A DNA stretch of 32,038 bases from NCBI GenBank assembly GCA_009908745.1, contig JAAAOU010000113.1, forward strand, positions 1 through 32,038, in the 5' to 3' direction. Position 1 is the stretch's first letter. The number at the start of each line of letters is the position of its first letter. Shown piece after piece: positions 3 to 27,539 of the stretch. Made by a program: the position numbers and the translations under genes. This DNA is from Bacteroidota bacterium (GTDB lineage: Bacteria; Bacteroidota; Bacteroidia; Chitinophagales; Saprospiraceae). The notes beneath the pieces are model-generated. The model made no database searches, had not been told where the DNA came from, and worked only from the letters and a program-made list of their open reading frames with translations.

Positions 3-2297
3 ACGGCGGACTATGTCTGTGACGTGACGCCGGACACGGTGCGGGTAGAGGTGCAGGATAGCTTTGACATAGACGTCACGGCCAGCGCGGACACGGTCTG
101 CGTGGGCGAGAGCGCTACGCTGACGGCCAATATTACCCCTGCGGATGTCAGCGCGGATATCACCTGGACGCAAGGCGGCAGCGTAGTGGGCACGGGCGAC
201 AGCCTGGTAGTAAGCCCGTCATCCCCCGGCAGCTACACCTACGTAGCCACGGGCAGTAACGCCTGCGGCACGGCGGCCGACTCGGTGACGATACGGGTAC
301 TGGGTGAAATACAGGTAGACGCGCAGCCCGACACCACAGTATGCTTGGGCGAAACTGCTATGCTTACTGCAATGGTCACGCCAGCTGGTGGAGCCAGCAG
401 TATTGAGTGGACCCTGGACGGAGACGTCGTTGGTAACGGCGGCACGCTATTGGTAAGCGCAGACACACCAGGTAGTTATGTATACGTAGCAACGGCTTCA
501 GGCCCTTGTAATGTTGCTAGCGACTCGGTGATTGTTCAGGTATTAGGTTCTATTCAGCTATTGGTACCGCAGGACACGAGCATTTGTGCAGGAGACAACA
601 CGACGCTTACCGCGCAGGTCATTCCGAGTGACGCGGATGCAACCATTGTTTGGACGCTGGAGGGCGATGTCGTTGGCAATACGAACGAGCTTGTAGTGAG
701 CCAAGACAGCGCCGGAAGTTATATCTACGTAGCAACGGCTACCGGGCTGTGCAATGAAGTCAGTGATTCCGTTACGGTTACCGTAATAGATAGTCTGCAA
801 ATCGATGCCCGGCCCGATTCCACTATTCTGCTCTGCGCGCCGGTACAAGAAGAAGTTTGCCTTAGTGCCACAGCTGACGGGATGGAGGATGACTTAGTTT
901 GGGTAGACGCTGATGGCAATATCCTTGATACAGGGGCGGAGCTGTGCGTCTTACCGCCAATTGGCGAAAGCCTGTATATTGCCACCTTGCCAGATCACAA
1001 TTGTGCTGTAGCGGATACTGTACGCATACTGGTAGATACCATACCTCCGCCACCTCCAATATTTGCAGACAGCACAAAGGTCTGTCTGGGCGATACCGCC
1101 GTGGTGGATGTTGAAGAGGGCTATATTTATCCCTTCGTCTGGCTTGACGAAGATGGAGCAGTCATCGCGGAGAACGAACCTCTATCCGTTGCTCCTGATA
1201 CTACAGGCAACTTTGAATATATCATCAGAGCTAGCAACGGCTGCGGCACCGTACAGGATACGGCGGTAGTTACGGTGGTTGACAGCAGTGCTGTAGAAAT
1301 TGTGGGTGGTTCTATGACCTTCTGTACCGTTGATACGGCTGTTTTGACGGCTAATTGGACCTTCCCAGAATGCGTAGTATGGACCGATATTGAAGGGACC
1401 CCCTTGGATACGGGAGCGCAAATTGTCATTCTGCCTACTGTAGGAACCGATACCATTATTGCGCAGTTGCCAGGGTTAGACTGTGTGGTGCCCGATACAG
1501 TCACCATCAGTTTCCTGCCACCGCCTTCGGTAGATATTACGCTGACCGATGACGTGATTTGTGAGGGAGATACGGCGGTATTGACCGCGGAGGTATTGCC
1601 ACCGAGCAGCACCAATTTCGTGAGTTGGTACGATGCCGATTTCAACTTCCTGACAGACGGTACTACGCTTGAGGTAAGCCCGGAAGCAGGGGAGTACACC
1701 TACATCGCCGTCGCCGAAAACGCCTGTGGTATGGACACGGCTTTTGCAGATTTACAGGTGGAACGACTGGACCTTGAGCTTATCGTCACCAATGATACGA
1801 TCTGCCCGGACGAATCCGCTACGCTGGAAGTGGCCGGTTGCGAAGATTGCACGTATGTGTGGACGCCGGAAGACGGCTTGTCGGCCCCAGATTCTGCTAT
1901 CACCGTGGCTGAGCCTACCGGTACAACAACCTACACGGTGGAAGTCTCGGGCCAGGCTTGTGTAGAGGAACTGGCTGCCACCATTACTGTGATTGACTGC
2001 CCGGAGTGTATGGAAATGGTCTTTGTGGCCGATGCCTTTACGCCAAACGGGGACGGCAATAACGACTCTGTTTGCCTGCGCAGTAACTTCTTAGAAGATT
2101 TCGAAGAAGTCGAGTTTATGATCTACAACCGTTGGGGCGAGGAACTATTTCGCTCTACGGACATCAAGAATATGTGCTGGGATGGCAAACACCGAAACAA
2201 GCAGTTGCCACCCGATGTCTACGGTTACTTCCTGCGGGTGAAATGCCCTGGCAGGGACGCTGTAGAGCTGAAAGGCAATATTACGCTGTTGCGATAA
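3..2297 (+). CDS. Multi-Ig-like repeat surface protein with C-terminal gliding-motility-associated (CHU_C / T9SS type B sorting) domain; 5' end truncated by the window
   Basis: Frame is open to the left edge upstream of the listed ORF. About eight ~80-aa repeats with paired Cys (DTVCVGESATLTA...GSYTYVAT..NACG..ADSVT). C-terminus AFTPNGDGNNDSVCLRS...YNRWGEELFRS...WDGK...PPDVYGYFLRVKC...ELKGNITLLR is the CHU_C signature. Confidence 0.9.
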   Translation, partial: TADYVCDVTPDTVRVEVQDSFDIDVTASADTVCVGESATLTANITPADVSADITWTQGGSVVGTGDSLVVSPSSPGSYTYVATGSNACGTAADSVTIRVLGEIQVDAQPDTTVCLGETAMLTAMVTPAGGASSIEWTLDGDVVGNGGTLLVSADTPGSYVYVATASGPCNVASDSVIVQVLGSIQLLVPQDTSICAGDNTTLTAQVIPSDADATIVWTLEGDVVGNTNELVVSQDSAGSYIYVATATGLCNEVSDSVTVTVIDSLQIDARPDSTILLCAPVQEEVCLSATADGMEDDLVWVDADGNILDTGAELCVLPPIGESLYIATLPDHNCAVADTVRILVDTIPPPPPIFADSTKVCLGDTAVVDVEEGYIYPFVWLDEDGAVIAENEPLSVAPDTTGNFEYIIRASNGCGTVQDTAVVTVVDSSAVEIVGGSMTFCTVDTAVLTANWTFPECVVWTDIEGTPLDTGAQIVILPTVGTDTIIAQLPGLDCVVPDTVTISFLPPPSVDITLTDDVICEGDTAVLTAEVLPPSSTNFVSWYDADFNFLTDGTTLEVSPEAGEYTYIAVAENACGMDTAFADLQVERLDLELIVTNDTICPDESATLEVAGCEDCTYVWTPEDGLSAPDSAITVAEPTGTTTYTVEVSGQACVEELAATITVIDCPECMEMVFVADAFTPNGDGNNDSVCLRSNFLEDFEEVEFMIYNRWGEELFRSTDIKNMCWDGKHRNKQLPPDVYGYFLRVKCPGRDAVELKGNITLLR

Positions 2298-2318
2298 GCG
2301 ATAGCACTGGAAGACGAG

Positions 2319-2357
2319 GCAGCCAGTTGTTCTCCCGAGCAACTGGCTGCTTTGTTT
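2319..2357 (+). terminator. Rho-independent terminator after the CHU_C protein
   Basis: Perfect 11-bp stem GCAGCCAGTTG (2319-2329) / CAACTGGCTGC (2340-2350), 10-nt loop, then TTTGTTTT. Confidence 0.8.
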
Positions 2358-3571
2358 TAAGACTTGAGCTTGGTATTGACCTGTACTGGGGCATGCATGG
2401 TTCTGTGCACGGGGCATTTGTTGGCGATTTCGAGCAGTTTTGCCCGCTGTTTTTCATCCAAGTCGCCTTGTAACTCGACTACGCGGTCGAAGTGGTCGAT
2501 CTTGCTATTGGGGTTTTCTAGGTCCTCACAGTCTGTAGCGTGGTCTTTGTAGTGGGAGAGGTGTACAGTTACGTTTTCCAGGGGCCACTTCTTGCGCTTA
2601 GCATACATTTGCAACGTCATAGCGGTACAGGTACCCAGCCCGGCGGTTACCAACTCGTAGGGAGACGGGCCGAAGTCATTGCCGCCCACAGATGGCGGTT
2701 CGTCGGCGGTGAGGCTATGTTGGCGGACGGTGACCTCGGTAGTGAAAATATCCTCATCGCTGAGCCGTACGGCCACATCTTTATCCGAGCGCAGCGGGCG
2801 GTCTTCCTCAGTATCTAAATAGCGTTGCACCCAGCTGCCAATCATTTCCCCGGCGTAGCGGGAGTCTGCCTTAGCCGACAGCAAGTGGTCGGCCCCGTCC
2901 AAGGAGATATAGCTCTTGGGGTGTTTGGCGGCGTGGTAGATGCGGGCGGCATTTTCAATTTCTACCGTAGCATCCTGCGGAGCGTGCATAATGAGCAACG
3001 CTCGGTTAAGGCGCTCGATTTTAGCCTCCAGTTTTTGGCTGCGGATATCCTCGAGGAATTGCCGTTTCACCGTAAAGGGGCGCCCGCCGATTTTCACCGT
3101 TGCCTTTCCTTTTTCCTTGATCTCCTCTTCCCCTTCCGACAGCAAGTGTGTGACGTGAGTAGGAGAAAAGGGAGCGCCTATAGTGGCCACTGCTTTGACC
3201 GATGGCAGCTCGTGGGCGGCGCGGATAACGGCTGCCCCGCCCAAGGAATGGCCGATCAAGACGGCTGGCGCCTGATACTGCTCCTTCAGAAACTGGGCGG
3301 CGGCCACGAGGTCTTCCACATTGGAGGAGAAGTTGGTGTCTTCGAAATCGCCTTCGCTTTCCCCGAGGCCCGTGAAATCGAAACGCAGGACCGCATATCC
3401 TTTTAGGGTGAGCCCCCGGCTGATGTTGCGCACAGCGGTCAGGTTTTTGTTGCAGGTAAAGCAATGCGCGAACAAAGCGTAATGGTCGGGGTATTGATGG
3501 GCGGGTAGTTCTAGCCGGGCGGCAAGGCGTTCGCCATCTGTATTTAAGAAAGTGACTTTTTCAGATCGCAT
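2357..3571 (-). CDS. Bifunctional alpha/beta hydrolase - OsmC family protein
   Basis: N-terminal alpha/beta hydrolase with nucleophile elbow GHSLGG and LRFDFTGLGESEG; C-terminal OsmC-like region (GGNDFGPSPYELVTAGLGTCTAMTLQMYAKRKKWPLENVTVHLSH...NKCPVHRTM). Start taken at internal ATG MRSEKV (3571) rather than 3652. Confidence 0.88.
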   Translation of the reverse strand: MRSEKVTFLNTDGERLAARLELPAHQYPDHYALFAHCFTCNKNLTAVRNISRGLTLKGYAVLRFDFTGLGESEGDFEDTNFSSNVEDLVAAAQFLKEQYQAPAVLIGHSLGGAAVIRAAHELPSVKAVATIGAPFSPTHVTHLLSEGEEEIKEKGKATVKIGGRPFTVKRQFLEDIRSQKLEAKIERLNRALLIMHAPQDATVEIENAARIYHAAKHPKSYISLDGADHLLSAKADSRYAGEMIGSWVQRYLDTEEDRPLRSDKDVAVRLSDEDIFTTEVTVRQHSLTADEPPSVGGNDFGPSPYELVTAGLGTCTAMTLQMYAKRKKWPLENVTVHLSHYKDHATDCEDLENPNSKIDHFDRVVELQGDLDEKQRAKLLEIANKCPVHRTMHAPVQVNTKLKS

Positions 3572-3744
3572 GTAAAGATGTTTTAGCACAAAACTAACAA
3601 AAGCGGGAAGCAGGTCCATATGAAAATACCCGTAGTGTAGTGGCGGCAACACTTGGCAACTGTTATGATTTCGTTAGGGGTACAGCACAGGCAGCCGTTG
3701 TGGCGCTATAATCACTACCTTTAGCGTTTCTAATCGCAAACAGC

Positions 3745-5040
3745 ATGCAGCCAGGTAACGGCAGAAAAATCGGTTGGGTGAGCGCCGCTGCAGTGGTAGT
3801 GGCCAATATGATTGGCACGGGCGTATTCACCAGCCTGGGGCTACAACTGGATAAGTTGGACAACGTCTGGTCCGTGCTGTTGCTGTGGCTGATTGGCGGT
3901 GCTATTGCGCTTATGGGGGCGTTCAGCTACGCGGAGTTGGGCACGCGGCTGCCACGCTCCGGTGGCGAGTATTACTTCCTGTCCCGGATTTACCACCCTT
4001 TCATTGGTTATTTGGCCGGCTGGGTATCGCTGACGGTAGGCTTTGCTGCTTCGGTAGCGCTGGCTGCCCTAGCGATGGGCGACTACGCTGCACACTTTCT
4101 GCCCATTGGTACCAAGGAGCTGGCGTTGTCGGCCATTGTGCTCATCTCTTTGGTGCACTCCATCAGCATCCGGCAAAGCAGTGCCTTCCAAAATATTTTC
4201 ACCCTACTGAAGCTGCTGCTTATCCTGTTCTTCATTGCCGCTTGCTTTTACCATCCCGCCCCGCCGGATACCGCACTGTCGGCTCGTCGGGTCAGCATAG
4301 ACGTCAGTCACCCGGCTTTTATGGTGGGGATGGTGTATGTGGCCTATGCGTTTTCCGGTTGGAACGCAGCGGCTTACATCGTGGAGGAGATCCGGGAGCC
4401 TCAGCGCAATTTGCCGAAAGCATTGATCGGGGGGGCACTGGTCGTCAGTACGCTGTATGTGCTGTTGCAAATGGGGTTTCTCCACCAAGCCTCGGTCCAC
4501 CAACTGGAAGGGCGGGTTGATGTCGGCCAAGTGGTGGCGGAGTTGCTGTTTGGCCCAGTAGGGGGGCAGCTGATTTCGCTTTTTATCGCTTTGTTCCTCG
4601 TCTCCAGCATCAGCGCCAGTGTTTGGGTGGGGCCGCGGGTGGTGCGGGCCATGGCGGATGATTACTCCATTTGGCACTTTCTGGCCAAGGACAACGCCAA
4701 GGGGATACCGGTGCGTGCCGTTTGGATGCAAGCGGCAATCAGCATCTTTATGGTGCTGGGCAGCCATTTTGATCAGGTGTTTTTGTACAGCGGGTTCGTG
4801 CTGCATGTGTTTACGACGCTGGCCGTAGCGGGTGTGGTTTTGCTGCGGCTAAAAGAGGGGCGCAAAGGCTACGCTAGCCCCGGATACCCTTGGGTACAAA
4901 TTGTTTTTCTCATCGTCAGTATATGGATGCTGGCCGTGCTGGTTTACGACCGGCCGGTGGAAAGCCTAATGGGGGTAGCCAACTTGGCGGTCGGTGCAGT
5001 GTCTTACTGGTGGAGCAAACAATTTGGGAAGCAGCACTAA
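3745..5040 (+). CDS. APC-superfamily amino acid permease
   Basis: IGWVSAAAVVVANMIGTGVFTSLG, SYAELGTRLPRSGGEYYFLSRIYHPFIGYLAGW; about 12 hydrophobic segments. Confidence 0.9.
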   Translation: MQPGNGRKIGWVSAAAVVVANMIGTGVFTSLGLQLDKLDNVWSVLLLWLIGGAIALMGAFSYAELGTRLPRSGGEYYFLSRIYHPFIGYLAGWVSLTVGFAASVALAALAMGDYAAHFLPIGTKELALSAIVLISLVHSISIRQSSAFQNIFTLLKLLLILFFIAACFYHPAPPDTALSARRVSIDVSHPAFMVGMVYVAYAFSGWNAAAYIVEEIREPQRNLPKALIGGALVVSTLYVLLQMGFLHQASVHQLEGRVDVGQVVAELLFGPVGGQLISLFIALFLVSSISASVWVGPRVVRAMADDYSIWHFLAKDNAKGIPVRAVWMQAAISIFMVLGSHFDQVFLYSGFVLHVFTTLAVAGVVLLRLKEGRKGYASPGYPWVQIVFLIVSIWMLAVLVYDRPVESLMGVANLAVGAVSYWWSKQFGKQH

Positions 5041-6869
5041 GCAAAATCCTGTAATTCGACAAGTTTTTGGTATTCGCCAGACAGGCTCAGTAAGCTCTGG
5101 TGCGTGCCCCGTTCCACGATGTGGCCATCCCGCATCACCACAATTTCGTCGGCGTGCTGTATGGTAGAAAGGCGGTGGGCAATGACGATGGAGGTGCGGT
5201 TTTTCATCAATTCGATCAACGCCCGCTGCACAAGCTTTTCTGATTCAGAGTCCAAAGCAGACGTTGCTTCGTCAAGTATGAGAATGGGCGGGTTTTGCAA
5301 AATAGCCCGGGCAATCGTCAAGCGCTGGCGCTGCCCGCCGCTAAGCTTGTTGCCACGGTCCCCAATATTGGTTTGGTAACCGTGCTCCGTTTGGGCGATA
5401 AACGCGTGGGCGTGGGCAATTTTGGCGGCCGCCACCACATCCGCTTCTGTCACCCCTTCCATACCGAAGACGATGTTGTTGTAGATGGTGTCGTTGAAGA
5501 GGATAGCCTCTTGGGAAACAATACCCATCTGCGCCCGGAGCGCCTTGATCTGGTAGTCTTGTATATTGCGGCCATCGAGGAGGATTGCCCCCTGTTCCAC
5601 TTCGTAAAAGCGGGGCAAGAGGTCCACCAAGGTTGATTTTCCTGCCCCGGAAGCCCCGACGAGGGCCACCACTTTCCCCTTGGGGATACGCAGTTGGATA
5701 TCGTGCAGCACGGGCGCTTCCTGAGGGCGGTAGGCGAAGGTGACGTTGCGGTACTCAATCTCCTGCTCGAATGCCGGCAAGGGCAGCGCATCGGGCTTGT
5801 CTTGGATGGCCACGGGGGCGTCTAAGACTTTCTCCACCCGCTGCATGGCCCCCACGCCCTTTTGGATGTTGTAGACCGACTTCGCGAGCTTTTTGGCCGG
5901 GTCGATGACGTTGTAGAAGGCGAAAATGAAAGTGAGAAAGGTCTCGGCCTCCATCGTACCTGAAAAGACTTGGCGCGAGCCGTACCAAAGCAGGACCGAC
6001 ACCGTAGCGATGCCCAAAAATTCCGATAGGGGAGAAGACAAGTCGCGCCGCCACAGCAAACGGGTGAGGGCATAGCGGTATCCGTTGTTTTCGCGGGCGA
6101 ATTTATCGCGCTGGTAGTGTTCTGCGTTGAACCCTTTTATAATGCGCAGGCCGCCGAGTGCTTCTTCCACTATGGCAACCAAATTGCCCATCCGGTCTTG
6201 CACCGCCGAGGACTTCTTTTTCAAGCTCCGCCCGATACCGCCTATGACCACGCCGGTGAAGATCATCAGCAAGAATACAAAGCCGGTAAGCCCAGGGCTG
6301 ACGTAGATCATGAAGCCCAGCGCGCCGGCGATGATCAGGGGCTCGCGGAAGACCGCTTCTAGCACATTGAGGATACTCCACTCTACCTCCTGCACATCCG
6401 AGGTGAGGCGGGACATGAGGTCGCCCTTGCGCTCCTCGCTGAAGTAGGACAGGGGCAGCACTAGGATTTTCTCGAATAGCTGCGCCCGGATGTCCCGGAT
6501 GATACCGTTACGCACCGGGGCCATAAAGAAAAGCGAAAGGTAGCGGAAGAGGTTTTTCAGCAAAAAGACGCTTAGGATGGCTATGCATACAAAGACTAAT
6601 GCGGCCTCTTTACCCTGCTCTAGGATGAGTTGGCTGATGTGATAGTTGAAGAGCTGGGTGAGGCTTTCGACATCCCATTGTACGGCGGGGCGCTCCAAAA
6701 CGGGTTCGCGGCGGTCAAACAAGATTTCTAAAAACGGGACCAACAAAGGGATGCTCAGGGCAGTGAACAGCGCCGTTAGTACGTTGCTAATGACATTGAG
6801 CGCTACATTGGTTTTGTAGTTGCGCAAATAGCCCATCAGCCGCCAAAACCCACTACGTCCTTTGCTCAT
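5037..6869 (-). CDS. ABC transporter, fused permease/ATPase (MsbA-like exporter)
   Basis: Six-TM N-terminal domain; Walker A GASGAGKST, signature LSGGQRQR, Walker B ILILDEATSALD, switch IVIAHRLSTI. Confidence 0.93.
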   Translation of the reverse strand: MSKGRSGFWRLMGYLRNYKTNVALNVISNVLTALFTALSIPLLVPFLEILFDRREPVLERPAVQWDVESLTQLFNYHISQLILEQGKEAALVFVCIAILSVFLLKNLFRYLSLFFMAPVRNGIIRDIRAQLFEKILVLPLSYFSEERKGDLMSRLTSDVQEVEWSILNVLEAVFREPLIIAGALGFMIYVSPGLTGFVFLLMIFTGVVIGGIGRSLKKKSSAVQDRMGNLVAIVEEALGGLRIIKGFNAEHYQRDKFARENNGYRYALTRLLWRRDLSSPLSEFLGIATVSVLLWYGSRQVFSGTMEAETFLTFIFAFYNVIDPAKKLAKSVYNIQKGVGAMQRVEKVLDAPVAIQDKPDALPLPAFEQEIEYRNVTFAYRPQEAPVLHDIQLRIPKGKVVALVGASGAGKSTLVDLLPRFYEVEQGAILLDGRNIQDYQIKALRAQMGIVSQEAILFNDTIYNNIVFGMEGVTEADVVAAAKIAHAHAFIAQTEHGYQTNIGDRGNKLSGGQRQRLTIARAILQNPPILILDEATSALDSESEKLVQRALIELMKNRTSIVIAHRLSTIQHADEIVVMRDGHIVERGTHQSLLSLSGEYQKLVELQDFA

Positions 6870-6894
6870 GTTGATTGTCTGTCAGGTTCTCCAC

Positions 6895-7542
6895 TTACTT
6901 CGGCTCGACTTCCAAGCGGTAGGAGGTTTCTCCCATTTTCAGTTTGTACGTCAGCGTGTTGCTGTCGGTACTGGCCCGCCCATTTTCATAAACGGGAAAC
7001 CGGCGGACTAGCGCGGTCTCTTGCAATTCGAAGACATCGCCTCCTTGGTACGTCTTGGAACGCAGGTTCTGCACTGCTTCATCCGCTACGTAAACCTCGC
7101 CGTAGGAGCGGTTGCGGTAGGAAGCATACGCGTAAACCTCCCCTTGGGCGGGTTCCGTTGTCGTCCGTGTAAAGATATAAACCTCGGGGTAGCCGTCTTG
7201 GTTGAGGTCGGCAAGCTCCGCCCGGAAGACTTGTTGGGGGCCGAGGTCTTTAGTGAAAGACGGGTTGCGGGCGGACAGGCCCTCAGATTGGATGGTAAAC
7301 GTGTTTTTTGTAGCGGAATTGGGCGAAGTAATGGTAAAGCGGATGCCCTCTTCGGACAGCTCTTGTTCAAAAGGGCCCTTCGAGCGTACCGCTTTACGGG
7401 GGGCAGCGAGCTCCATCTGCGGGGCTGCCGTATCGGCTTGCGGCTCCTTGTCTGCCACTTGGGAGGAGGAGCTGCGGTCCCCGCCGGAGCAGGCAAAACC
7501 GAATAGCAATACGCCCGCTAGCAGCATACGGTATAGCATCAT
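6895..7542 (-). CDS. Lipoprotein, possibly PliI-family (I-type lysozyme inhibitor-like)
   Basis: Signal with lipobox LLFGFAC-SGG; conserved-looking core TITSPNSATKNTFTIQSEGLSARN...ELADLNQDGYPEVYIFTRT...GEVYAYASYRNRSYGEVY. Start placed at MMLYRMLL, just after the accC stop. Family assignment is from memory and moderate. Confidence 0.6.
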   Translation of the reverse strand: MMLYRMLLAGVLLFGFACSGGDRSSSSQVADKEPQADTAAPQMELAAPRKAVRSKGPFEQELSEEGIRFTITSPNSATKNTFTIQSEGLSARNPSFTKDLGPQQVFRAELADLNQDGYPEVYIFTRTTTEPAQGEVYAYASYRNRSYGEVYVADEAVQNLRSKTYQGGDVFELQETALVRRFPVYENGRASTDSNTLTYKLKMGETSYRLEVEPK

Positions 7543-7543
7543 C

Positions 7544-8896
7544 TTACTTTTTAGGTTCGGCCGTGAGGTCAAAGTCATTCAAAAAGCCCGTGTGGAAGTT
7601 CCCGGCGCGGAAATGCTCGTTCTTCATCAGCCGCTGGTGGAAAGGCACCGTGGTTTTTACACCTTCTATGATGAATTCATCCAGCGCGCGTTCCATTTTC
7701 TTGATGCACTCTTCGCGGGTAGGGGCGCGGCAGATGAGCTTGGCCACCATAGAGTCGTAGTAGGGCGGGATATTGTAGCCCGCATACACATGCGTGTCTA
7801 CCCGTACGCCATGCCCTTTAGAGCTGTGGAACGAGCTGATTTTGCCCGGGCTGGGGCGAAAGTCGTTGAAGGGGTCCTCCGCATTGATCCGGCACTCGAT
7901 GGCGTGGGCATTGGGGTAGTAATTGCCGCCGGTGATGAGTTCGCCCGCCGCGATTTTGATTTGTTCCTTGATGAGGTCGTGGTCGATCACTTCTTCGGTG
8001 ACGGGGTGTTCGACCTGTATCCGCGTATTCATTTCCATGAAGTAGAAGTTGCGGTATTTGTCGACCAGAAACTCAACGGTCCCCACGCCTTCGTATTTGA
8101 TCGCTTCCCCGGCCTGCACGGCTGCTTTGCCCATTTCCTCGCGCAGTTCATCGGTCATGAAAGGAGAGGGGCACTCTTCCACCAGTTTTTGGTGGCGGCG
8201 CTGTATGGAGCAGTCGCGCTCAGACAGGTGCACGACTTTGCCTTTCTGGTCGCCGGCGATTTGGAACTCGATATGGCGGGGTTCCTCGATGAATTTTTCG
8301 ATGTAGATACCATCGTTGCCGAAAGCCGCTTTCGCTTCCTGCCGGGCGCGGTCCCAATTGGGCTCGAACTCCGCTTCTTCCCATACGATGCGCATGCCTT
8401 TGCCGCCGCCGCCGGCCGTTGCTTTGAGGATAATGGGGTAACCGATATCCTTCGCGATTTTCTTGCCTGATTTCAGGTCCTTTACCAAGCCGTCGGAGCC
8501 TGGGATGACGGGGACGCCCGCTTTGACCATCGTTTCTTTGGCCGTGATTTTATCACCCATTTTGCGGATTTGCTCCGGGGTGGGGCCGATGAATTTAATG
8601 CCGTACTCGGCACAAACTTCGGCAAAGTCGGCGTTTTCCGACAAGAAGCCATAGCCGGGGTGGATCGCATCGGCATTTGTGATTTCCACGGCGGCCATGA
8701 TGCGGGGCACACTCAGGTAGGATTCCGTAGATGAAGGAGGGCCAATGCAGACGGCTTCGTCGGCGAAGCGTACATGCAGGCTTTCCCGGTCGGCAGTAGA
8801 ATAGACCGCTACCGTCTGAATGCCCATCTCGCGGCAGGTGCGGATGATGCGCAGGGCGATTTCTCCCCGGTTCGCAATGAGTACTTTATGGAACAT
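7544..8896 (-). CDS. accC: Acetyl-CoA carboxylase biotin carboxylase subunit
   Basis: [69 protein letters not shown]. The listed ORF starts at 8908; MFHKV at 8896 is the likelier start. Confidence 0.96.
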
Positions 8897-14176: not shown

Positions 14177-14899
14177 ATGAACCGACGACCGCTAATAACA
14201 ATCATAATGCTTACGCTGTGGGCTTTCCTGCAGGGTTTTTCCGTTATGGCACAGCCCCAGCAAGATCGTGGCGGCGCTGAGGGGTATCACATCGGGGTCT
14301 ACACGGGTTCGAGTGCCTTGCTAGGCGTAGATGTCAGCTGTGCTATGAATGACCGCTGGAAGTTGCGGGCCGGGTTTTCGCTCATGCACTTTAAGGTGCG
14401 TCAATGGGAGACGGACTTTAACCGGTTTTCGCACGAAGCATCGATTAATCTTACCGCAGAGTCTTCTTGCTTTTCCTTGCTTTTCGATTACAGCCCTTGG
14501 GGCAAAGGGTTCTTCCGTTTGGTCGGTGGGATCGGCTTGTTCATCGACAACAAGTTCAGTGGTTCAGTGAAGCTGGCAGAGCCGTTTACATTCAACGATA
14601 TTGACTTTGAGCCCGATGAACTGGGGTACGTCTACGGCAGTGTGCACTTCAATCACTCTATCAATCCGTATTTGGGGATAGGCTTGGGCCGCTTACACGG
14701 CAAGAAAAGGCGCGTATCGCTGAGCGTGGACATCGGTACTTTTTATAAAGGGGCCCCTCAAATCCAAGTTGGCGGTACGAACTTGCTACAAAATAACGAA
14801 CACAACTCTGAAATATTAACGGACAATTTTTCCGCTTACCGTTGGTATCCGGTATTGAACTTCCGAATCAACTATTCCATAAATCCTGTTAACAATTAA
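14177..14899 (+). CDS. Hypothetical exported protein, probable outer-membrane beta-barrel
   Basis: Signal peptide ending SVMAQ; alternating beta-strand character (YHIGVYTGSSALLGVDVSCAMNDRWKLRAGFSLMHFKV...), terminal strand FRINYSINPVNN. Confidence 0.6.
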   Translation: MNRRPLITIIMLTLWAFLQGFSVMAQPQQDRGGAEGYHIGVYTGSSALLGVDVSCAMNDRWKLRAGFSLMHFKVRQWETDFNRFSHEASINLTAESSCFSLLFDYSPWGKGFFRLVGGIGLFIDNKFSGSVKLAEPFTFNDIDFEPDELGYVYGSVHFNHSINPYLGIGLGRLHGKKRRVSLSVDIGTFYKGAPQIQVGGTNLLQNNEHNSEILTDNFSAYRWYPVLNFRINYSINPVNN

Positions 14900-14912
14900 T
14901 CCAAGATTAACC

Positions 14913-16658
14913 ATGAAAAATAAATTTTACACCCGCTTATGGCTGCTACTTGCCTCACTAGCGATTGTCGTAGCTTCCTGCACCAAGACAGAGGACATGC
15001 TGCGCGGTACTTCCATCAATGTGGATACGGAGCTGCTACTCAATCCGCTCAACATTCAAATTGTAGCCGACCCCAACGAGTCCCAGCTGCCATCCGACCT
15101 TGATGTAGATGTCACGGGACCCGATGCCGAAAAGGTATATACGGTGTTTGGGGAAAAGAAGCTTGAGGTCAATGTGAATGAAGCAGACCCTCGCATTGCG
15201 ATGCTGCCCATCGGTATCCGTCGTATCGAGCCTGTCTCTTCGGTGGACCCTATTGAGTTTTCCCTGATTTTGAAGGCGGAAGGTTACAACACCGTAACCC
15301 GGAACTACCGCATCACGAACTTTGAGGAGGACATGTGCAATATCCGGCTGCTGCGTACGGATAATACTACGGACGGCATACAAACAGAGGAGGCCCGCTT
15401 CATCGTGAACGAAAAAGGGGCTGCCGAGCCGGTCCGCTTCCAAACTCGCCGTAATACCGATGGCGAATATGTGGCGGTCGAGGTACAGCAAGGCACCCGC
15501 ATGTTCACCGCCGATGGGCAGGCCGTGGTTGGCGATGTGGACGCCGCGTTGAACCACTATAATTTCCGGGTGCAAGGCGTCAATGAAATGGCACCCGCTA
15601 GCCTGTACTCCAATGCGGCTGTCGACAAGGACGGCAATGTGCTGAGCTTGTCTTCATTCGACCTGCTTGCCATGTATACCTTGGATATGCACGCCTCCTC
15701 CAGCGAAGTCCGTAGTTTTTCTAAGCCCCTTGACGTTACCGTGCAAGTACAAGCGGATGCCACCAACCCGGCGACCGGCGAGCGGATCAAAGCCGGGGAT
15801 GTCATACCGGTATGGAGCTACAACGAAAAACTGGGCGAGTGGCAAGAAGAAACCACCGCGACGATTACCACCGGCACTGGTGGCATGCTGTACGCTAATT
15901 TCGAGCAGGAGCACCTTTCGATCTGGCTACTGGGCGGGCGCTTCCCCTGCCGCAACCAAACTCGGGTATTGGTGACCAATAACGAGCAGCAACGCAATGG
16001 CCCCAAGCGCTACTACTATGTAGAGGTGTATCGGGCAAGCGACAACACCGTACTTTGGACGGACTATACACGTTTCTACGACAATGAGTCGATCGAGTTG
16101 TTTGCTGGTTTTACCATACCCATTTATTTCCGGATTTACTCAGAACCGGCAGAGGCATGCAGTACGCAGGAGATATTGTTCGAGTCCGAAGTATTCAACA
16201 GCTGTGGGGGAGAGATCGAAGTGGATGTCACCGAGGCACTCCTTCAGACGGACTTGGATCGGGTTAGGATGTTTGTAGAAGTAGCAGGCACCTGCTCTAG
16301 CGATTTCAACGATCTGGTCGTCCGGCCTTCCCTTCCGATCCTCTACCGCGAGAATGGATGCGAGACTTGGCAGCCTTTAGGCTGGTTGCGCAATGGCGAA
16401 GGCGCTACGCAGGCGCTGGAGCGTGGAAAGTACTACGACTTCCGGATTTCTCACCGTACACTTGACCGCTGCATCTTTAACTTGCAGGTTCCTACACAGG
16501 ATACGACCGTTTTGGTTGATAGCCCGGTGTATAATTTCATGGAAGAAATTGAAGTCATGTACGATGGGGATGATATCCGTTTTAACTACACGGATATTCA
16601 AGTCCCGGATTTGGCGTGCGACGAGTATATCGATTACCTTAATGATGTGCCCCGTTAG
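14913..16658 (+). CDS. Hypothetical lipoprotein with multiple beta-rich domains
   Basis: Lipobox SLAIVVASC-TKT; acidic residues after Cys; Cys-rich C-terminal half. Only 13 bp after the preceding gene, so likely co-transcribed. Confidence 0.7.
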   Translation: MKNKFYTRLWLLLASLAIVVASCTKTEDMLRGTSINVDTELLLNPLNIQIVADPNESQLPSDLDVDVTGPDAEKVYTVFGEKKLEVNVNEADPRIAMLPIGIRRIEPVSSVDPIEFSLILKAEGYNTVTRNYRITNFEEDMCNIRLLRTDNTTDGIQTEEARFIVNEKGAAEPVRFQTRRNTDGEYVAVEVQQGTRMFTADGQAVVGDVDAALNHYNFRVQGVNEMAPASLYSNAAVDKDGNVLSLSSFDLLAMYTLDMHASSSEVRSFSKPLDVTVQVQADATNPATGERIKAGDVIPVWSYNEKLGEWQEETTATITTGTGGMLYANFEQEHLSIWLLGGRFPCRNQTRVLVTNNEQQRNGPKRYYYVEVYRASDNTVLWTDYTRFYDNESIELFAGFTIPIYFRIYSEPAEACSTQEILFESEVFNSCGGEIEVDVTEALLQTDLDRVRMFVEVAGTCSSDFNDLVVRPSLPILYRENGCETWQPLGWLRNGEGATQALERGKYYDFRISHRTLDRCIFNLQVPTQDTTVLVDSPVYNFMEEIEVMYDGDDIRFNYTDIQVPDLACDEYIDYLNDVPR

Positions 16659-20887: not shown

Positions 20888-21598
20888 TCAATCTTTGTAA
20901 ACAAAGGTAGCAACGACGGCAAATACTGCAAAATATCCTAAACTGAATAGTGTGCCCCAGTACAGTATAGCCGGATAATCGGGGTACCACCAGAGCAAAC
21001 CCGTGACCGACAGCACGAATACCACCGTGAACAGCAGGGTGGCGGGCCGCCAGCGCCTCGTACGGCTCGGGTACGCAAACTTGATGGGCACAAACTGCAA
21101 GGCCGCTAGCACGGTAATGAGCGCAGCGTGCCCGTACGGCGGGAATGGGAAGATGAAAATCAGGTAAAAGGCCACCATGTTCCACATCACCGGGAAACCG
21201 ACAAAGTAGTGGTTATCCGAAATCATACCCGATTTGCCGTAGTAAATCGCCGAAGTGAGCAAAATGAGGAACGCCATACTTAGCGAGAGGGCATCCGGCA
21301 TCAAGTCGGCTTTGTAGATCATAAAAGCGGGCACGATGGCGTAGCCGGCAAAGTCGATCACAAAATCAATGCTCTTGCCACTCATTTGCGGAAGCACTTT
21401 TTCCACTTGGTAACGCCGGGCTAAGGTGCCGTCTACACCGTCAATCAATTGGGCGGCGAGCAGCCACAGCATGGCGGCGCGAAAATCGGCTGCCCCTGCC
21501 TCCACCAAAGCCATAAATACAGTGATGATACCGGTAGCGGTAAACCAGTGCACCAGCCACGCCTTCAGCCGGGTGGAAATAGAATAGGTAGTTTTCAT
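20888..21598 (-). CDS. pcs: Phosphatidylcholine synthase (CDP-alcohol phosphatidyltransferase family)
   Basis: CDP-alcohol phosphotransferase motif DGVDGTLARRYQVEKVLPQMSGKSIDFVIDF (DGxDG..AR...G...D...D); Pcs-like context KAWLVHWFTATG, ISDNHYFVGFPVMWNMVAFYLI; about 8 TM segments. Confidence 0.85.
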   Translation of the reverse strand: MKTTYSISTRLKAWLVHWFTATGIITVFMALVEAGAADFRAAMLWLLAAQLIDGVDGTLARRYQVEKVLPQMSGKSIDFVIDFAGYAIVPAFMIYKADLMPDALSLSMAFLILLTSAIYYGKSGMISDNHYFVGFPVMWNMVAFYLIFIFPFPPYGHAALITVLAALQFVPIKFAYPSRTRRWRPATLLFTVVFVLSVTGLLWWYPDYPAILYWGTLFSLGYFAVFAVVATFVYKD

Positions 21599-21645
21599 AA
21601 AGTCGCTGCTAAATTGTCAACATATATAGCTATTTTTTGCGGTCT

Positions 21646-23223
21646 ATGGGCAGAAACGCACACAAAACAAGTTGGAAAATGGCGATACGCCCCGCCCTGT
21701 GGCTGATCGGGCTGCTTTTGTTGACGGGGTTTGGGCTAGAGTTGTTCACGGATGACGACCTCAGCTGGCCGGCTTACCTTTCTATGATGGTGTTTTACGC
21801 CCTCATCTTCGGCCTTGGGGCCTATGCGGCACAGCTGCGGCGGGGGGAAGACAGCGACAGTTTTCTGCTGGCCGGCCGTAGGCTGCCGTTATTGCTAGCT
21901 ATTTTTACCATGAGTGCCACTTGGGTAGGCGGGGGGTACATCAACGGCACGGCTGAATATACCTACAGTTCAGGCTTGGTGTGGGTGCAGGCCCCTTGGG
22001 GATATGCCCTGAGTCTTATCCTTGGCGGCTTGTTCTTCGCCCGGCGGATGCGGCAGCGGCGGTACCGCACTTTGCTGGACCCCCTAGAAGAGCGGTTCGG
22101 CAAACGGGTAGCCGCCCTGTTTTTCCTGCCCGCCCTATCGGGAGAAGTGTTTTGGACGGCAGCTATCCTTACGGCCTTGGGGACGACCTTCGGGGCTATT
22201 GCAGGCTTGGACACGCACACCGCCATAGTGCTTTCGGCGGTCATTACCATCGCCTACACGGCATTGGGCGGCTTGTGGGCGGTAGCGCTTACGGATTTTA
22301 TACAGCTTATGCTGCTGCTGTTGGGGCTGGCGCTTACGGTCCCCTTTGCGCTGCAAGCCGTGGGGGGCTGGCCGGCCGCTTGGGCGCAGTACCAAAGTGA
22401 CTTCGGCGCGGCAGCCAGCTTCTTGCCCAGCCGGGAAGCGCTGGGGAGTTACTATTGGAACTGGTGGGACTACGCGCTTCTGCTCACATTTGGCGGTATT
22501 CCCTGGCAGGTCTACTTTCAGCGTGTGCTGGCTTCCAAGGATGCGGATACCGCGGTGCGGCTGTCGGTATTAGCGGGTTTCGTTTGCCTGCTGGCTGCTG
22601 TACCCGCTGTATTGATTGGCATAGCCGGGCAGACGGCGGACTGGGCGGCGATGGGCCTCGAACCACCGCCCGATGCGGCTTCTACCTTGCCGTGGGTCGT
22701 GCGTTATCTCACGCCGGGCTGGGCGGGCGTCATTGGCTTAGGGGCCGTAGCCGCGGCGGTGATGTCCTCGGCCGACTCCTCTATTCTCTCGGCCTCCTCT
22801 ATGTCCGGGTGGAACGTCTACCGCCCGCTTTTCTCCCCAAAAATAGACCCCGAAACCCTTCGCAAGCTGATACAGCGCGTGATCTGGATCGTCGGTATTG
22901 CCGCTATGCTTATCGCCCTGAATATCCAAAGCGTGTATGAGCTTTGGTTTTTGTGCAGCGACTTTGTGTACTGCCTGCTGTTTCCCGCGCTGGTATGCGC
23001 GCTTTTCGACCCTAAGGCTAACGCTACGGGAGCGGTGGCTGGATTTGTTGTGGCCTTCGTCCTTCGCTTTGGCGGTGGCGACGAGACGTTGGGGATACCG
23101 CTTTTGCTGCCTTACCCTATGGTGGAAGACGGGGTCTCTCTCTTTCCCTTCCGTACTACTGCTATGGTAGCCGGTTTGCTGAGTTCCCTGCTCGTATCCC
23201 GCCTGCGTAACCTCCTCGGCTGA
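21646..23223 (+). CDS. Sodium:solute symporter, high-affinity choline transporter (CHT/SLC5A7)-like
   Basis: SSS family with segments recalled as near-identical to animal CHT1: TMSATWVGGGYINGTAEYTYSSGLVWVQAPWGYALSLILGGLFFA; LTFGGIPWQVYFQRVLASKDA; GLGAVAAAVMSSADSSILSASSM. Start at ATG 21646 (21679 also possible; the ORF call at 21637 uses TTG). Confidence 0.85.
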   Translation: MGRNAHKTSWKMAIRPALWLIGLLLLTGFGLELFTDDDLSWPAYLSMMVFYALIFGLGAYAAQLRRGEDSDSFLLAGRRLPLLLAIFTMSATWVGGGYINGTAEYTYSSGLVWVQAPWGYALSLILGGLFFARRMRQRRYRTLLDPLEERFGKRVAALFFLPALSGEVFWTAAILTALGTTFGAIAGLDTHTAIVLSAVITIAYTALGGLWAVALTDFIQLMLLLLGLALTVPFALQAVGGWPAAWAQYQSDFGAAASFLPSREALGSYYWNWWDYALLLTFGGIPWQVYFQRVLASKDADTAVRLSVLAGFVCLLAAVPAVLIGIAGQTADWAAMGLEPPPDAASTLPWVVRYLTPGWAGVIGLGAVAAAVMSSADSSILSASSMSGWNVYRPLFSPKIDPETLRKLIQRVIWIVGIAAMLIALNIQSVYELWFLCSDFVYCLLFPALVCALFDPKANATGAVAGFVVAFVLRFGGGDETLGIPLLLPYPMVEDGVSLFPFRTTAMVAGLLSSLLVSRLRNLLG

Positions 23224-23303: not shown

Positions 23304-23322
23304 TACTATGTATTGCATAGTA
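23304..23322 (+). promoter_or_regulatory. Candidate PadR operator: perfect inverted repeat
   Basis: TACTATG-TATTG-CATAGTA (7+5+7), overlapping the TTG of the -33 element. Confidence 0.6.
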
Positions 23323-23343
23323 GTGGGTTTTGCTTTATATTTG
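23313..23343 (+). promoter_or_regulatory. Consensus Bacteroidota promoter for the padR-pspC operon
   Basis: TTG (23313-23315) - 20 nt - TATATTTG (23336-23343), matching TTG-N19-21-TAnnTTTG; ATG follows at 23349. Confidence 0.75.
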
Positions 23344-23348
23344 TGCCT

Positions 23349-23711
23349 ATGAAAGGCAAAGACATCAATAAAACGAGGCAGCAGCTCATCCGGCAGATGC
23401 GCCGGGGCGTGCTTGAGCTTTGCGTACTTTCTATAGTGGCTAAGAAAGAGGCTTATCCTTCGGACATTATTAAGGAGTTGAAAGCTTCAGACTTAATTGT
23501 GGTAGAAGGCACGCTGTATCCGCTGTTGAGCCGCCTGAAGGACCAGGGGTTGTTACAGTACAACTGGCGGGAGTCTACACAAGGGCCGCCCCGCAAGTAT
23601 TATTCTATTACCGACACAGGCCACACCTTGCTCATGGAGCTTCAAGATACCTGGCAGGCTCTGGTGCAGGCGGTCGATCACTCCACAAAAAACATCAACG
23701 ATAATGAATAA
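23349..23711 (+). CDS. PadR family transcriptional regulator
   Basis: LIRQMRRGVLELCVLSIVAKKEAYPSDIIKELKASDLIVVEGTLYPLLSRLKDQGLLQYNWRESTQGPPRKYYSITDTGHTLL is the PadR winged-helix signature. Start at MKGKD. Confidence 0.92.
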   Translation: MKGKDINKTRQQLIRQMRRGVLELCVLSIVAKKEAYPSDIIKELKASDLIVVEGTLYPLLSRLKDQGLLQYNWRESTQGPPRKYYSITDTGHTLLMELQDTWQALVQAVDHSTKNINDNE

Positions 23712-25272
23712 GGTACAGCAGATCAATCTCGGTGGTGTACCCTTTACGATAGATGAGGATGCCTTTGAACACCTTTGTCGGTACTTGGACACCATCCACC
23801 GGCACTTCCGGGAGTCTCAGGGGTACGAAGAGATCACCCAAGATATAGAAGCCCGCTTGGCGGAGTTGTTTCAAGAAAGCCTGGGCCGGCGCACCATCGT
23901 ATCTTTGTCGGACGTCAAGGACGCGATCGTGATTATGGGTACGCCCGAGGATTTTGGCGCCGAGCCTATAGAAGAAGAAACAGCGGGCGCTTCCACAGCG
24001 GGTGAGCGCCAATACAAAACCGGCCGGCGGCTGTTCCGGGACCCGGAAGAAGAAGTGCTCGGAGGGGTGTGCTCGGGCATTGCTGCCTACGTAGGGATTA
24101 GCGACCCGTTGTGGATCCGGTTACTTTTTATTGTGCTGACGATCACCAGCGGTTTTGGCATACCCGCCTACCTTATTCTATGGGCAATCGTTCCGCAGGC
24201 CCAAACAGCTAGTGACCGGCTGGCGATGCGCGGGGAGCCGATTAATGCTTCCAATATCGGCCGTATTATAGAAGAAGAGGTCGAGCATATTTCCCAAAAG
24301 GTATCTGAGCTCGGCGGCAAAAAAAAAGGCCAAAATGGGAGCGGAAGTGAGTTGAGCCGCATACTGCGTGAAATTGTTGCCTTTATCGGCAAAGTACTGC
24401 GCATCATCATTGATATACTCGGAAAGCTTTGGAAGCCGCTGCTGATCTTTGTCGGCATTGCATTTGTGTTTGCTTTCATAGCGGCCTGGGTAGCGGCGGT
24501 GAGCGGCGGGATTTATTTCTGGCCGTACGTAGACTACTTCGCCCCCGCGTCCAACGGTATACTTATGCTGGGTGCTTTCAACCTGCTCATTGTAATTGGA
24601 ATGGTGCTTATGGATGTAGCGCTGTTGATCACCCGACTGCTCTACGGCACCCGCATGAGTAAACCTTGGCGTAATGGATTGGCGGTTTTTTGGGTCTTGA
24701 ATATTGTCAGTCTTGTATTCGTCATGGCGATGTTTGCCCGCGAATTTCACAATGGAGCCAGCGTGCAGCGTCAAGTGCCACTTTCTAGCCTGCGCAGTGA
24801 TACACTCTCCCTCGAAATGGGGGCAGATTACCAAGGGGAGGCGCACTTCGATATCGACAACGAACTGATTATGACGGATGATGCGCTGCTTACCCGTAAC
24901 TTTGATATCCGTATCCGAAAAGGCGATGGGGCGCAATTCGAAGTGAAGACGGAGCTGTCTTCCCGCGGCCCTACACAGGCTGTAGCCGAACGGTACGCGT
25001 TGGCTACCGATTACGAAGCGATTAGCCTTGGGGATAACTTGGTATTCCCTCCTTACCTCAAAGTGCCACAGGGCAATAAGTGGCGGGCTCAGGAAGTAGA
25101 CGTTGAGCTGAGGGTACCCGTAGGCAAGTATATCCGCTTTATGGGCGAGAACCCGTTCTTCATTGATGAGGCGGATAAAGTGGATTACCGGCCCCGTATT
25201 TACGATAATCCAGGCAGCACCTGGGAGATGACCGAAGATGGCTTGAAGTGTTTGGACTGTCAAGAGGAGTAA
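23704..25272 (+). CDS. PspC domain-containing membrane protein
   Basis: RRLFRDPEEEVLGGVCSGIAAYVGISDPLWIRLLFIVLTITSGFGIPAYLILWAIVPQ is the PspC domain; further TM segments; 8-bp overlap (ATGAATAA) with padR. Confidence 0.9.
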   Translation: MNKVQQINLGGVPFTIDEDAFEHLCRYLDTIHRHFRESQGYEEITQDIEARLAELFQESLGRRTIVSLSDVKDAIVIMGTPEDFGAEPIEEETAGASTAGERQYKTGRRLFRDPEEEVLGGVCSGIAAYVGISDPLWIRLLFIVLTITSGFGIPAYLILWAIVPQAQTASDRLAMRGEPINASNIGRIIEEEVEHISQKVSELGGKKKGQNGSGSELSRILREIVAFIGKVLRIIIDILGKLWKPLLIFVGIAFVFAFIAAWVAAVSGGIYFWPYVDYFAPASNGILMLGAFNLLIVIGMVLMDVALLITRLLYGTRMSKPWRNGLAVFWVLNIVSLVFVMAMFAREFHNGASVQRQVPLSSLRSDTLSLEMGADYQGEAHFDIDNELIMTDDALLTRNFDIRIRKGDGAQFEVKTELSSRGPTQAVAERYALATDYEAISLGDNLVFPPYLKVPQGNKWRAQEVDVELRVPVGKYIRFMGENPFFIDEADKVDYRPRIYDNPGSTWEMTEDGLKCLDCQEE

Positions 25273-26219: not shown

Positions 26220-27539
26220 ATGTCCATGCAATCAGTAGACGAGAAGCTGAAATACAAAGTAAAAGACATCAACCTGGCCGACTGGGGCCGCAAAGAAATC
26301 GAATTGGCCGAAGCCGAGATGCCTGGCCTGATGGCTTTGCGCGAAAAGTACGGCAAGGACAAGCCGCTGAAAGGCGCGCGCATCGCCGGATGCCTGCACA
26401 TGACTATTCAGACCGCCGTGCTCATCGAAACCTTGGTAGAACTGGGGGCCGATGTCACTTGGTCTTCCTGCAATATTTTTTCCACACAGGACCACGCGGC
26501 GGCGGCTATCGCTGCGGCGGGCGTGCCGGTTTTCGCCTGGAAAGGCCAGACCGACGAGGAGTTCTGGTGGTGCATTGAGCAAACCCTGTTCGCGTTCGAA
26601 GACGGCCAGCAACTCAATATGATCCTGGACGACGGAGGCGATTTGACCAATACCGTATTGGATAAGCACCCGGAGCTGATCGACGGCGTGAAGGGGCTGA
26701 GCGAAGAGACCACCACGGGCGTACACCGCTTGTACGAGCGCATGAAGAAAGGCACCCTGCCCATGCCCGCCATCAATGTCAATGACTCGGTGACGAAGTC
26801 GAAGTTCGATAACAAGTATGGCTGCAAAGAATCCGCAGTGGACGCTATCCGCCGGGCAACGGACGTCATGATGGCCGGCAAGGTTGCCGTCGTGGCAGGT
26901 TACGGTGACGTGGGTAAAGGTACTGCCGCTTCTCTGCGGGGTGCCGGCTGCCGGGTTATCGTTACGGAAATTGACCCCATCTGTGCCCTGCAGGCCGCTA
27001 TGGACGGCTTCGAAGTGAAGCGCATCGAGAACGTACTGGACCGCGTGGACATCGTGGTGACGGCTACCGGCAACAAAGACATTATCAGCGAGAAGCACTT
27101 CCGCGCCATGAAGGATAAGGTCATTGTCTGTAACATTGGCCACTTTGACAACGAGATCGACGTTGCTTTCCTGAATCGCGAGTTTGGCCATACTAAGACG
27201 GAGATCAAGCCGCAGGTCGACAAGTACACCATCGACGGCAAGGATATCATCCTGCTGGCAGAGGGCCGCTTGGTGAACCTGGGTTGCGCTACTGGCCACC
27301 CGTCTTTCGTCATGTCCAACTCTTTCACCAACCAAGTGTTGGCACAGATCGAATTGTGGAACAATACCGATCAATACGAGAACAAAGTATACATGCTGCC
27401 CAAGCACCTGGACGAAGAGGTTGCCCGCCTGCACCTCGAAAAAATCGGTGCCGAGCTGGAGACCCTGCGCCCCGATCAGGCCGAATACATTGGCGTCGAG
27501 GTAGAAGGGCCATTCAAGCCTGAGTACTACCGCTACTAG
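26220..27539 (+). CDS. ahcY: Adenosylhomocysteinase
   Basis: [118 protein letters not shown]-terminal PFKPEYYRY. Confidence 0.98.

Follow-up and report, generated by a model that had tools for sequence, protein, structure and literature searches.

In Brucella, Agrobacterium and Sinorhizobium, choline is imported by the ABC transporter ChoXWV and fed to phosphatidylcholine synthase (Pcs) (PMC8371380, PMC3972451). The Pcs motif with its 12-residue spacer was defined in a review, where the Sinorhizobium meliloti enzyme is described as having eight TM helices with the motif placed between TM II and III (PMC3972451). On the side of choline uptake, sfCHT of Salimicrobium flavidum was characterised in 2026 and shown by experiment to transport choline in a Na+-dependent, HC-3-inhibited manner. 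The same work termed the physiological role of prokaryotic CHT homologs unclear and suggested osmoadaptation or nutrition (PMC13220886). Phosphatidylcholine (PC) has been reported from Rhodothermus and from Balneolaceae such as Fodinibius (PMC5167729, PMC12260241). Thus the statement in the first-pass annotation of this DNA that PC is untypical of Bacteroidota holds for Bacteroidia, where the lipid is atypical, and does not extend to Rhodothermus and Balneolaceae. For Saprospiria (Phaeodactylibacter, Lewinella-type genera, Aureispira and Saprospira), we found no report of PC in the open-access papers searched.

The window, by which we mean the whole analysed stretch of 32,038 nucleotides, is contig C469 of a 5.4-Mb draft genome (completeness 95%, contamination 1.5%). 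Reading of its sequence and open reading frames gave two uninterrupted, divergent genes, pcs and cht (Table 1), and we read them as a choline-to-membrane-lipid module with a probability of roughly 0.84. This reading is supported by the family identities of both proteins, by their active- and binding-site residues, by head-to-head synteny, by co-occurrence, and by trees that fit joint horizontal transfer. The parts are of known kinds, and choline transport by a CHT1-like protein of a bacterium was demonstrated before (PMC13220886). No earlier report of a CHT–Pcs pairing was found in the literature that could be searched.

Layout, distribution and apparent transfer of the pcs–cht pair

The cht frame can be read from a TTG or, alternatively, from the ATG at 21646, which gives 525 aa. 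The two ATG codons are separated by 47 bp, in good agreement with the head-to-head arrangement and the spacing of "about 50 bp" claimed earlier, and this gap is presumably a regulatory region shared by both genes. Immediately downstream of cht, a gene for a PadR-type regulator overlaps one for a PspC/ToastRack membrane protein, and a few genes further on lies a gene for S-adenosylhomocysteine hydrolase, which is without a clear tie to the module. Elsewhere in the window, two adjacent ORFs had no Pfam match at E <= 1e-5, and an alpha/beta hydrolase carries an OsmC domain fused at its C-terminus.

Table 1. Coordinates of the gene pair, of other features in the window, and of loci in other genomes mentioned in the text
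Sequence	Feature	Coordinates	Strand	Description and basis
Window	pcs	20888..21598	-	236 aa, ATG start; Pcs-type CDP-alcohol phosphotransferase, predicted phosphatidylcholine synthase
Window	Pcs catalytic motif, residues D53-D82 (DGVDGTLARRYQVEKVLPQMSGKSIDFVID)	21353..21442	-	Motif scan and alignment positions; definition: PMC3972451
Window	Intergenic region, 47 bp	21599..21645	.	Divergent ATG to divergent ATG; sequence
Window	cht	21637..23223	+	Start TTG 21637, 528 aa; predicted Na+/choline symporter of CHT1/SLC5A7 type
Window	PadR-type regulator and PspC/ToastRack protein	23313-25272	+	Overlapping genes
Window	S-adenosylhomocysteine hydrolase	26220-27539	+	
Window	Adjacent ORF pair	14177-16658	+	240 + 581 aa
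Window	Alpha/beta hydrolase-OsmC fusion	2357-3652	-	
L106	pcs, cht and GMC gene	3-3916		Chitinophagales MAG
L078	Two-gene cassette	4376-5912		Between pcs and cht
L071	Two-gene cassette	2799-5860		Between pcs and cht
L030	pcs-cht pair	5244-7584		Rhodohalobacter-type Balneolaceae
G165, C2	pcs-cht pair	451946-454238		Rhodohalobacter-type Balneolaceae
G259, C94	pcs-cht pair	155744-158000		Rhodohalobacter-type Balneolaceae
L066	betB-betA-CHT string	1965-7578		
L080	betB-betA-CHT string	2096-7620		
L084	betB-betA-CHT string	2606-7542		
L108	betB-betA-CHT string	2669-7578		
L091	betB-betA-CHT string	2378-7617		
L120	CHT, betB, alcohol dehydrogenase	2702-6533		Priestia megaterium plasmid, 410 kb

Among 60 relatives, the source genome included, Pcs was present in all 19 genomes with a CHT and in 3 of the 41 others (p=8e-13; because the sampled genomes are related, Fisher p-values overstate independence and are indicative only). 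Within the family the corresponding figures were 19/19 and 2/17, and across 395 genomes sampled from the whole phylum Pcs was found in 8/8 genomes with a CHT and in 18/387 others. Moreover, pcs and cht were located on one contig and less than 2 kb apart in 14 of the 19 CHT genomes. Our survey of named genomes recovered 80 CHT loci, 75 of which had enough upstream sequence to be assessed. Pcs adjoined CHT in 50 of these 75, in 49 cases head-to-head, and in 27 of the 49 linked loci no more than 250 bp lay between the alignment ends of the two genes. The other 25 assessable loci had no Pcs nearby, hence the CHT–Pcs link is not obligatory. The arrangement recurs across dozens of species, which together with the E-values of both proteins (below) rules out a chance resemblance; it proved to be widespread in Saprospiria, for which a survey had been suggested, and its range extends to Cyclobacteriaceae (Aquiflexum, Cognataquiflexum) and Balneolaceae.

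Some loci are arranged differently. In a Chitinophagales MAG (L106), pcs and cht are co-directional and overlap, and a choline-dehydrogenase-like GMC gene there runs in the same direction. In some Saprospiraceae (L078 and L071), pcs and cht are separated by one or two copies of a two-gene cassette, which encodes a P-loop ATPase-like protein of ~350 aa and a small protein of ~165-190 aa.

The window pair and that of Rhodohalobacter sulfatireducens (Balneolota) fell inside Phaeodactylibacter in both gene trees (support 99/81 for Pcs and 100/99 for CHT), and likewise a Balneolaceae locus (L058) grouped with a Saprospiraceae one (L109) in both (97/88 and 100/97). The simplest reading of these two agreeing trees is that the pair was transferred twice as a unit between Saprospiria and Balneolaceae. 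Two further genomes, G165 and G259, have the linked pair at 82% identity, and three of their congeners have a CHT at ~61% together with an unlinked Pcs. The pcs–cht pairs of Rhodohalobacter-type Balneolaceae (L030, G165 and G259; CHT 82-83%) are closer to the pair in the window than are those of the window's own congeners, and the diverged CHT with unlinked Pcs occurs in other genomes that probably belong to the same genus as the carriers, a pattern that looks like transfer of the whole pair.

Choline oxidation as another setting for CHT

The strongest rival reading is that CHT mainly feeds the oxidation of choline to glycine betaine for osmoprotection, and that the Pcs encoded next to it uses little of the choline or does so incidentally. 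Choline oxidation is indeed an apparent alternative home for CHT, as CHT adjoins betB- and/or betA-like genes in Arenibacter, Cerina, Echinicola, Marinilabilia and Algoriphagus. In Arenibacter, BetA scored above both curated cut-offs and BetB above one of two, and the upstream BetI-like TetR regulator did not reach its own. In Algoriphagus the GMC gene scored under the BetA cut-off, and bet genes beyond these two genera were assigned by clustering with the scored ones. The source genome itself has a lone BetA-like GMC enzyme encoded on another contig, with 526 bits against a cut-off of 732, but a reading of the translations of the adjoining stretch gave no aldehyde dehydrogenase ORF beside that gene. 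Moreover, Pcs is the recurrent neighbour of CHT in Saprospiria, and although every one of the 19 genomes with a CHT has Pcs, a BetA-like match is missing from 9 of them; thus lipid synthesis fits this clade more consistently as the fate of choline. We consider it unlikely that oxidation is the main destination and Pcs the incidental one, although both fates of choline may operate together.

The betB-betA-CHT strings (Table 1) come from Flavobacteriaceae, Cyclobacteriaceae and Marinilabiliaceae; L066 has a gene for a BetI-like TetR regulator upstream of the string, and L080 has a homolog of it. Outside Bacteroidota, a plasmid of Priestia megaterium carries CHT head-to-head with betB and a gene for an iron-containing alcohol dehydrogenase, an arrangement that also favours oxidation; the CHT is annotated there only as a sodium:solute symporter. 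Only choline genes turn up repeatedly beside CHT in more than a few loci, and where Pcs is missing CHT is often found with betB-betA; these contexts are independent support for choline as the substrate of CHT.

Family assignment of the two proteins

The pcs product matched the CDP-alcohol phosphotransferase family PF01066 weakly (23.7 bits against a cut-off of 22). It matched five NCBIfam Pcs models with E-values from 2.6e-46 to 8.6e-35, and the pssA model with 4e-8. Its score of 158 bits is below the Pcs cut-offs of 300-440, which are curated and lineage-specific, and the authentic Pcs of S. meliloti is also below the cut-offs of other lineages (the Pseudomonas model gives it 177, the Legionella model 148). 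The phosphotransferase motif pointed out by the first-pass annotation is present; its exact form differs from the one given there and is D53xxDGxxAR(x12)GxxxDxxxD82, with a 12-residue spacer that matters. The form DGx2ARx12Gx3Dx3D was found by motif scan in the window protein, in 46 linked relatives, and in the Pcs of Sinorhizobium, Legionella, Pseudomonas and Halomonas; this spacer was not found in E. coli PgsA or in the genome's own PssA, as PssA and PgsA have spacers of 7-8 residues. The motif printed in the defining review (PMC3972451) has one letter unlike the sequences analysed here.

In alignment, the blocks V-H, L-P and GFPxxWN are common to the window protein and to the Pcs of S. meliloti, Legionella and Pseudomonas. 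The window protein is 40% identical to the S. meliloti enzyme over 176 aa and, when the full alignment is counted, 31-34% identical to proteobacterial Pcs. The AlphaFold model (pLDDT 92) has eight long helices, and D53-D82 covers its helix 2-helix 3 region, in agreement with the S. meliloti topology. The only other PF01066 protein in the genome (C312) has pssA as its best NCBIfam match, with 99 bits against a cut-off of 107. When the Pcs tree was rooted with PssA and PgsA, branches were unusably long and PgsA and PssA fell among the Bacteroidota rows, so membership in Pcs rests on the HMM, motif and block evidence. On this evidence, together with the separate PssA, the protein is of Pcs type as first proposed, and identity with PssA or PgsA is ruled out by the HMM scores, the spacer length and that separate PssA.

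A Pcs-like enzyme could nevertheless attach another head group, such as serine, ethanolamine or a choline analogue, and so produce a different lipid. The score under the curated cut-offs and the low full-alignment identity would fit such an enzyme, as would the best match among solved folds, which is the PS synthase 7pow of the same superfamily, though searches of the PDB by sequence and by fold found no solved Pcs structure. Against this, the spacer and the three blocks are those of known Pcs, a separate PssA is present in this genome, and the partner gene encodes a choline transporter by homology; we therefore regard a different head group as very improbable. From homology to S. meliloti Pcs, whose activity is known, the pcs product is predicted to synthesise PC.

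The cht product belongs to the solute:sodium symporter family (PF00474, E=1.3e-36). Its best match among solved structures is sfCHT (9rws; 622 bits, E = 7e-186, 57% identity), followed by human CHT1 (388 bits, E = 8e-115, 48% identity), and the third match, a sodium/glucose cotransporter, reached only 77 bits; the PutP and PanF models are only distantly related. The symporter segments ATWVGGGYINGTAE, GGIPWQVYFQRVL and AAVMSSADSSILSASSM, first picked out as resembling CHT1, are present and align to it. With residues numbered from TTG 21637, the Na+ site A94/T95/V97/Q223 is identical to A97, T98, V100 and Q226 of sfCHT, and the choline cage W96/Y123/W173/W290/W437 is identical to W99, Y126, W176, W298 and W445 of sfCHT, with all five cage residues also the same in CHT1. 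Along the exit path, R84, Q303 and R304 of sfCHT correspond to R81, Q295 and R296, and S307 is replaced by A299, at a position with limited conservation in bacteria and a modest effect (PMC13220886). Maximum-likelihood analysis placed the window protein in a CHT group with human CHT1 and sfCHT; a long branch (100/99) set this group apart from PutP of E. coli and from four SSS paralogs encoded in the source genome. The clade assignment thus agrees with the earlier one, and PutP or SGLT identity is ruled out by the model scores, the structure matches and that branch. Within the tree, human CHT1 stood beside Bacillota CHT proteins (95/90), inside the bacterial family; as there is one long human branch only, a bacterial origin of the animal transporter is a question and not a result.

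Proline, a sugar, betaine or carnitine as the substrate would be compatible with the breadth of the SSS superfamily, but is hardly credible given the distance from the PutP, PanF and SGLT models and from the genome's own paralogs, the identical choline cage and the choline-using neighbours. By homology to sfCHT, the cht product would transport choline with Na+.

Predicted function of the module and its relation to known systems

In the proposed choline-to-membrane-lipid module, import of choline would be driven by the Na+ gradient through CHT, for which homology predicts 14 helices in a LeuT fold. Pcs, in the same inner membrane, would combine the imported choline with CDP-diacylglycerol to give PC and CMP. 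Divergent transcription from the 47-bp gap would make joint control possible, and the choline may originate in hosts or algae. The two-gene route from choline import to PC put forward by the first-pass annotation is thus upheld as a predicted function by HMM scores, residues, synteny and co-occurrence, and each of its refutation tests that could be run came out in its favour. A wider reading also seems likely, with somewhat less confidence: that in Saprospiria and in some Balneolaceae and Cyclobacteriaceae the prokaryotic orthologs of CHT1, the neuronal choline transporter of animals, are dedicated feeders of Pcs, and that cht-pcs is a horizontally mobile lipid-remodelling unit which makes PC a choline-dependent membrane lipid of a Bacteroidota lineage in which our search met no record of it.

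The conserved pair would offer prokaryotic CHTs a physiological role across a large clade, namely the import of choline for PC synthesis, and the module predicts PC in Saprospiria. For algae-associated marine bacteria, it may provide a link to choline released by eukaryotes. Encoded by one gene and driven by Na+, CHT would also be an alternative to import by ChoXWV.

The known Pcs enzymes of S. meliloti, Legionella and Pseudomonas have the 12-residue-spacer motif and the conserved blocks in common with the window protein, whose model has eight long helices; the latter differs in its low full-alignment identity, in scores below the lineage-specific NCBIfam cut-offs, and in its Bacteroidota host. 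The window symporter has the Na+ site, the aromatic choline cage and the gate residues of sfCHT (PDB 9rws/9rwt; PMC13220886) and of human CHT1/SLC5A7, and unlike sfCHT it has Ala at the S307 position and is encoded next to pcs. BetIBA loci are also choline-using and are CHT-linked, as betB-betA, in other Bacteroidota, but their product is glycine betaine and not a lipid. The closest parallel is the ChoXWV-Pcs route, in which dedicated choline import supplies Pcs, as proposed here for CHT and Pcs. To judge from its genes, the window module would work like that route without being a member of it: ChoXWV is an ABC transporter, whereas the predicted importer beside pcs is a single Na+-driven SLC5-type symporter of the SSS/CHT kind, commonly encoded head-to-head with pcs.
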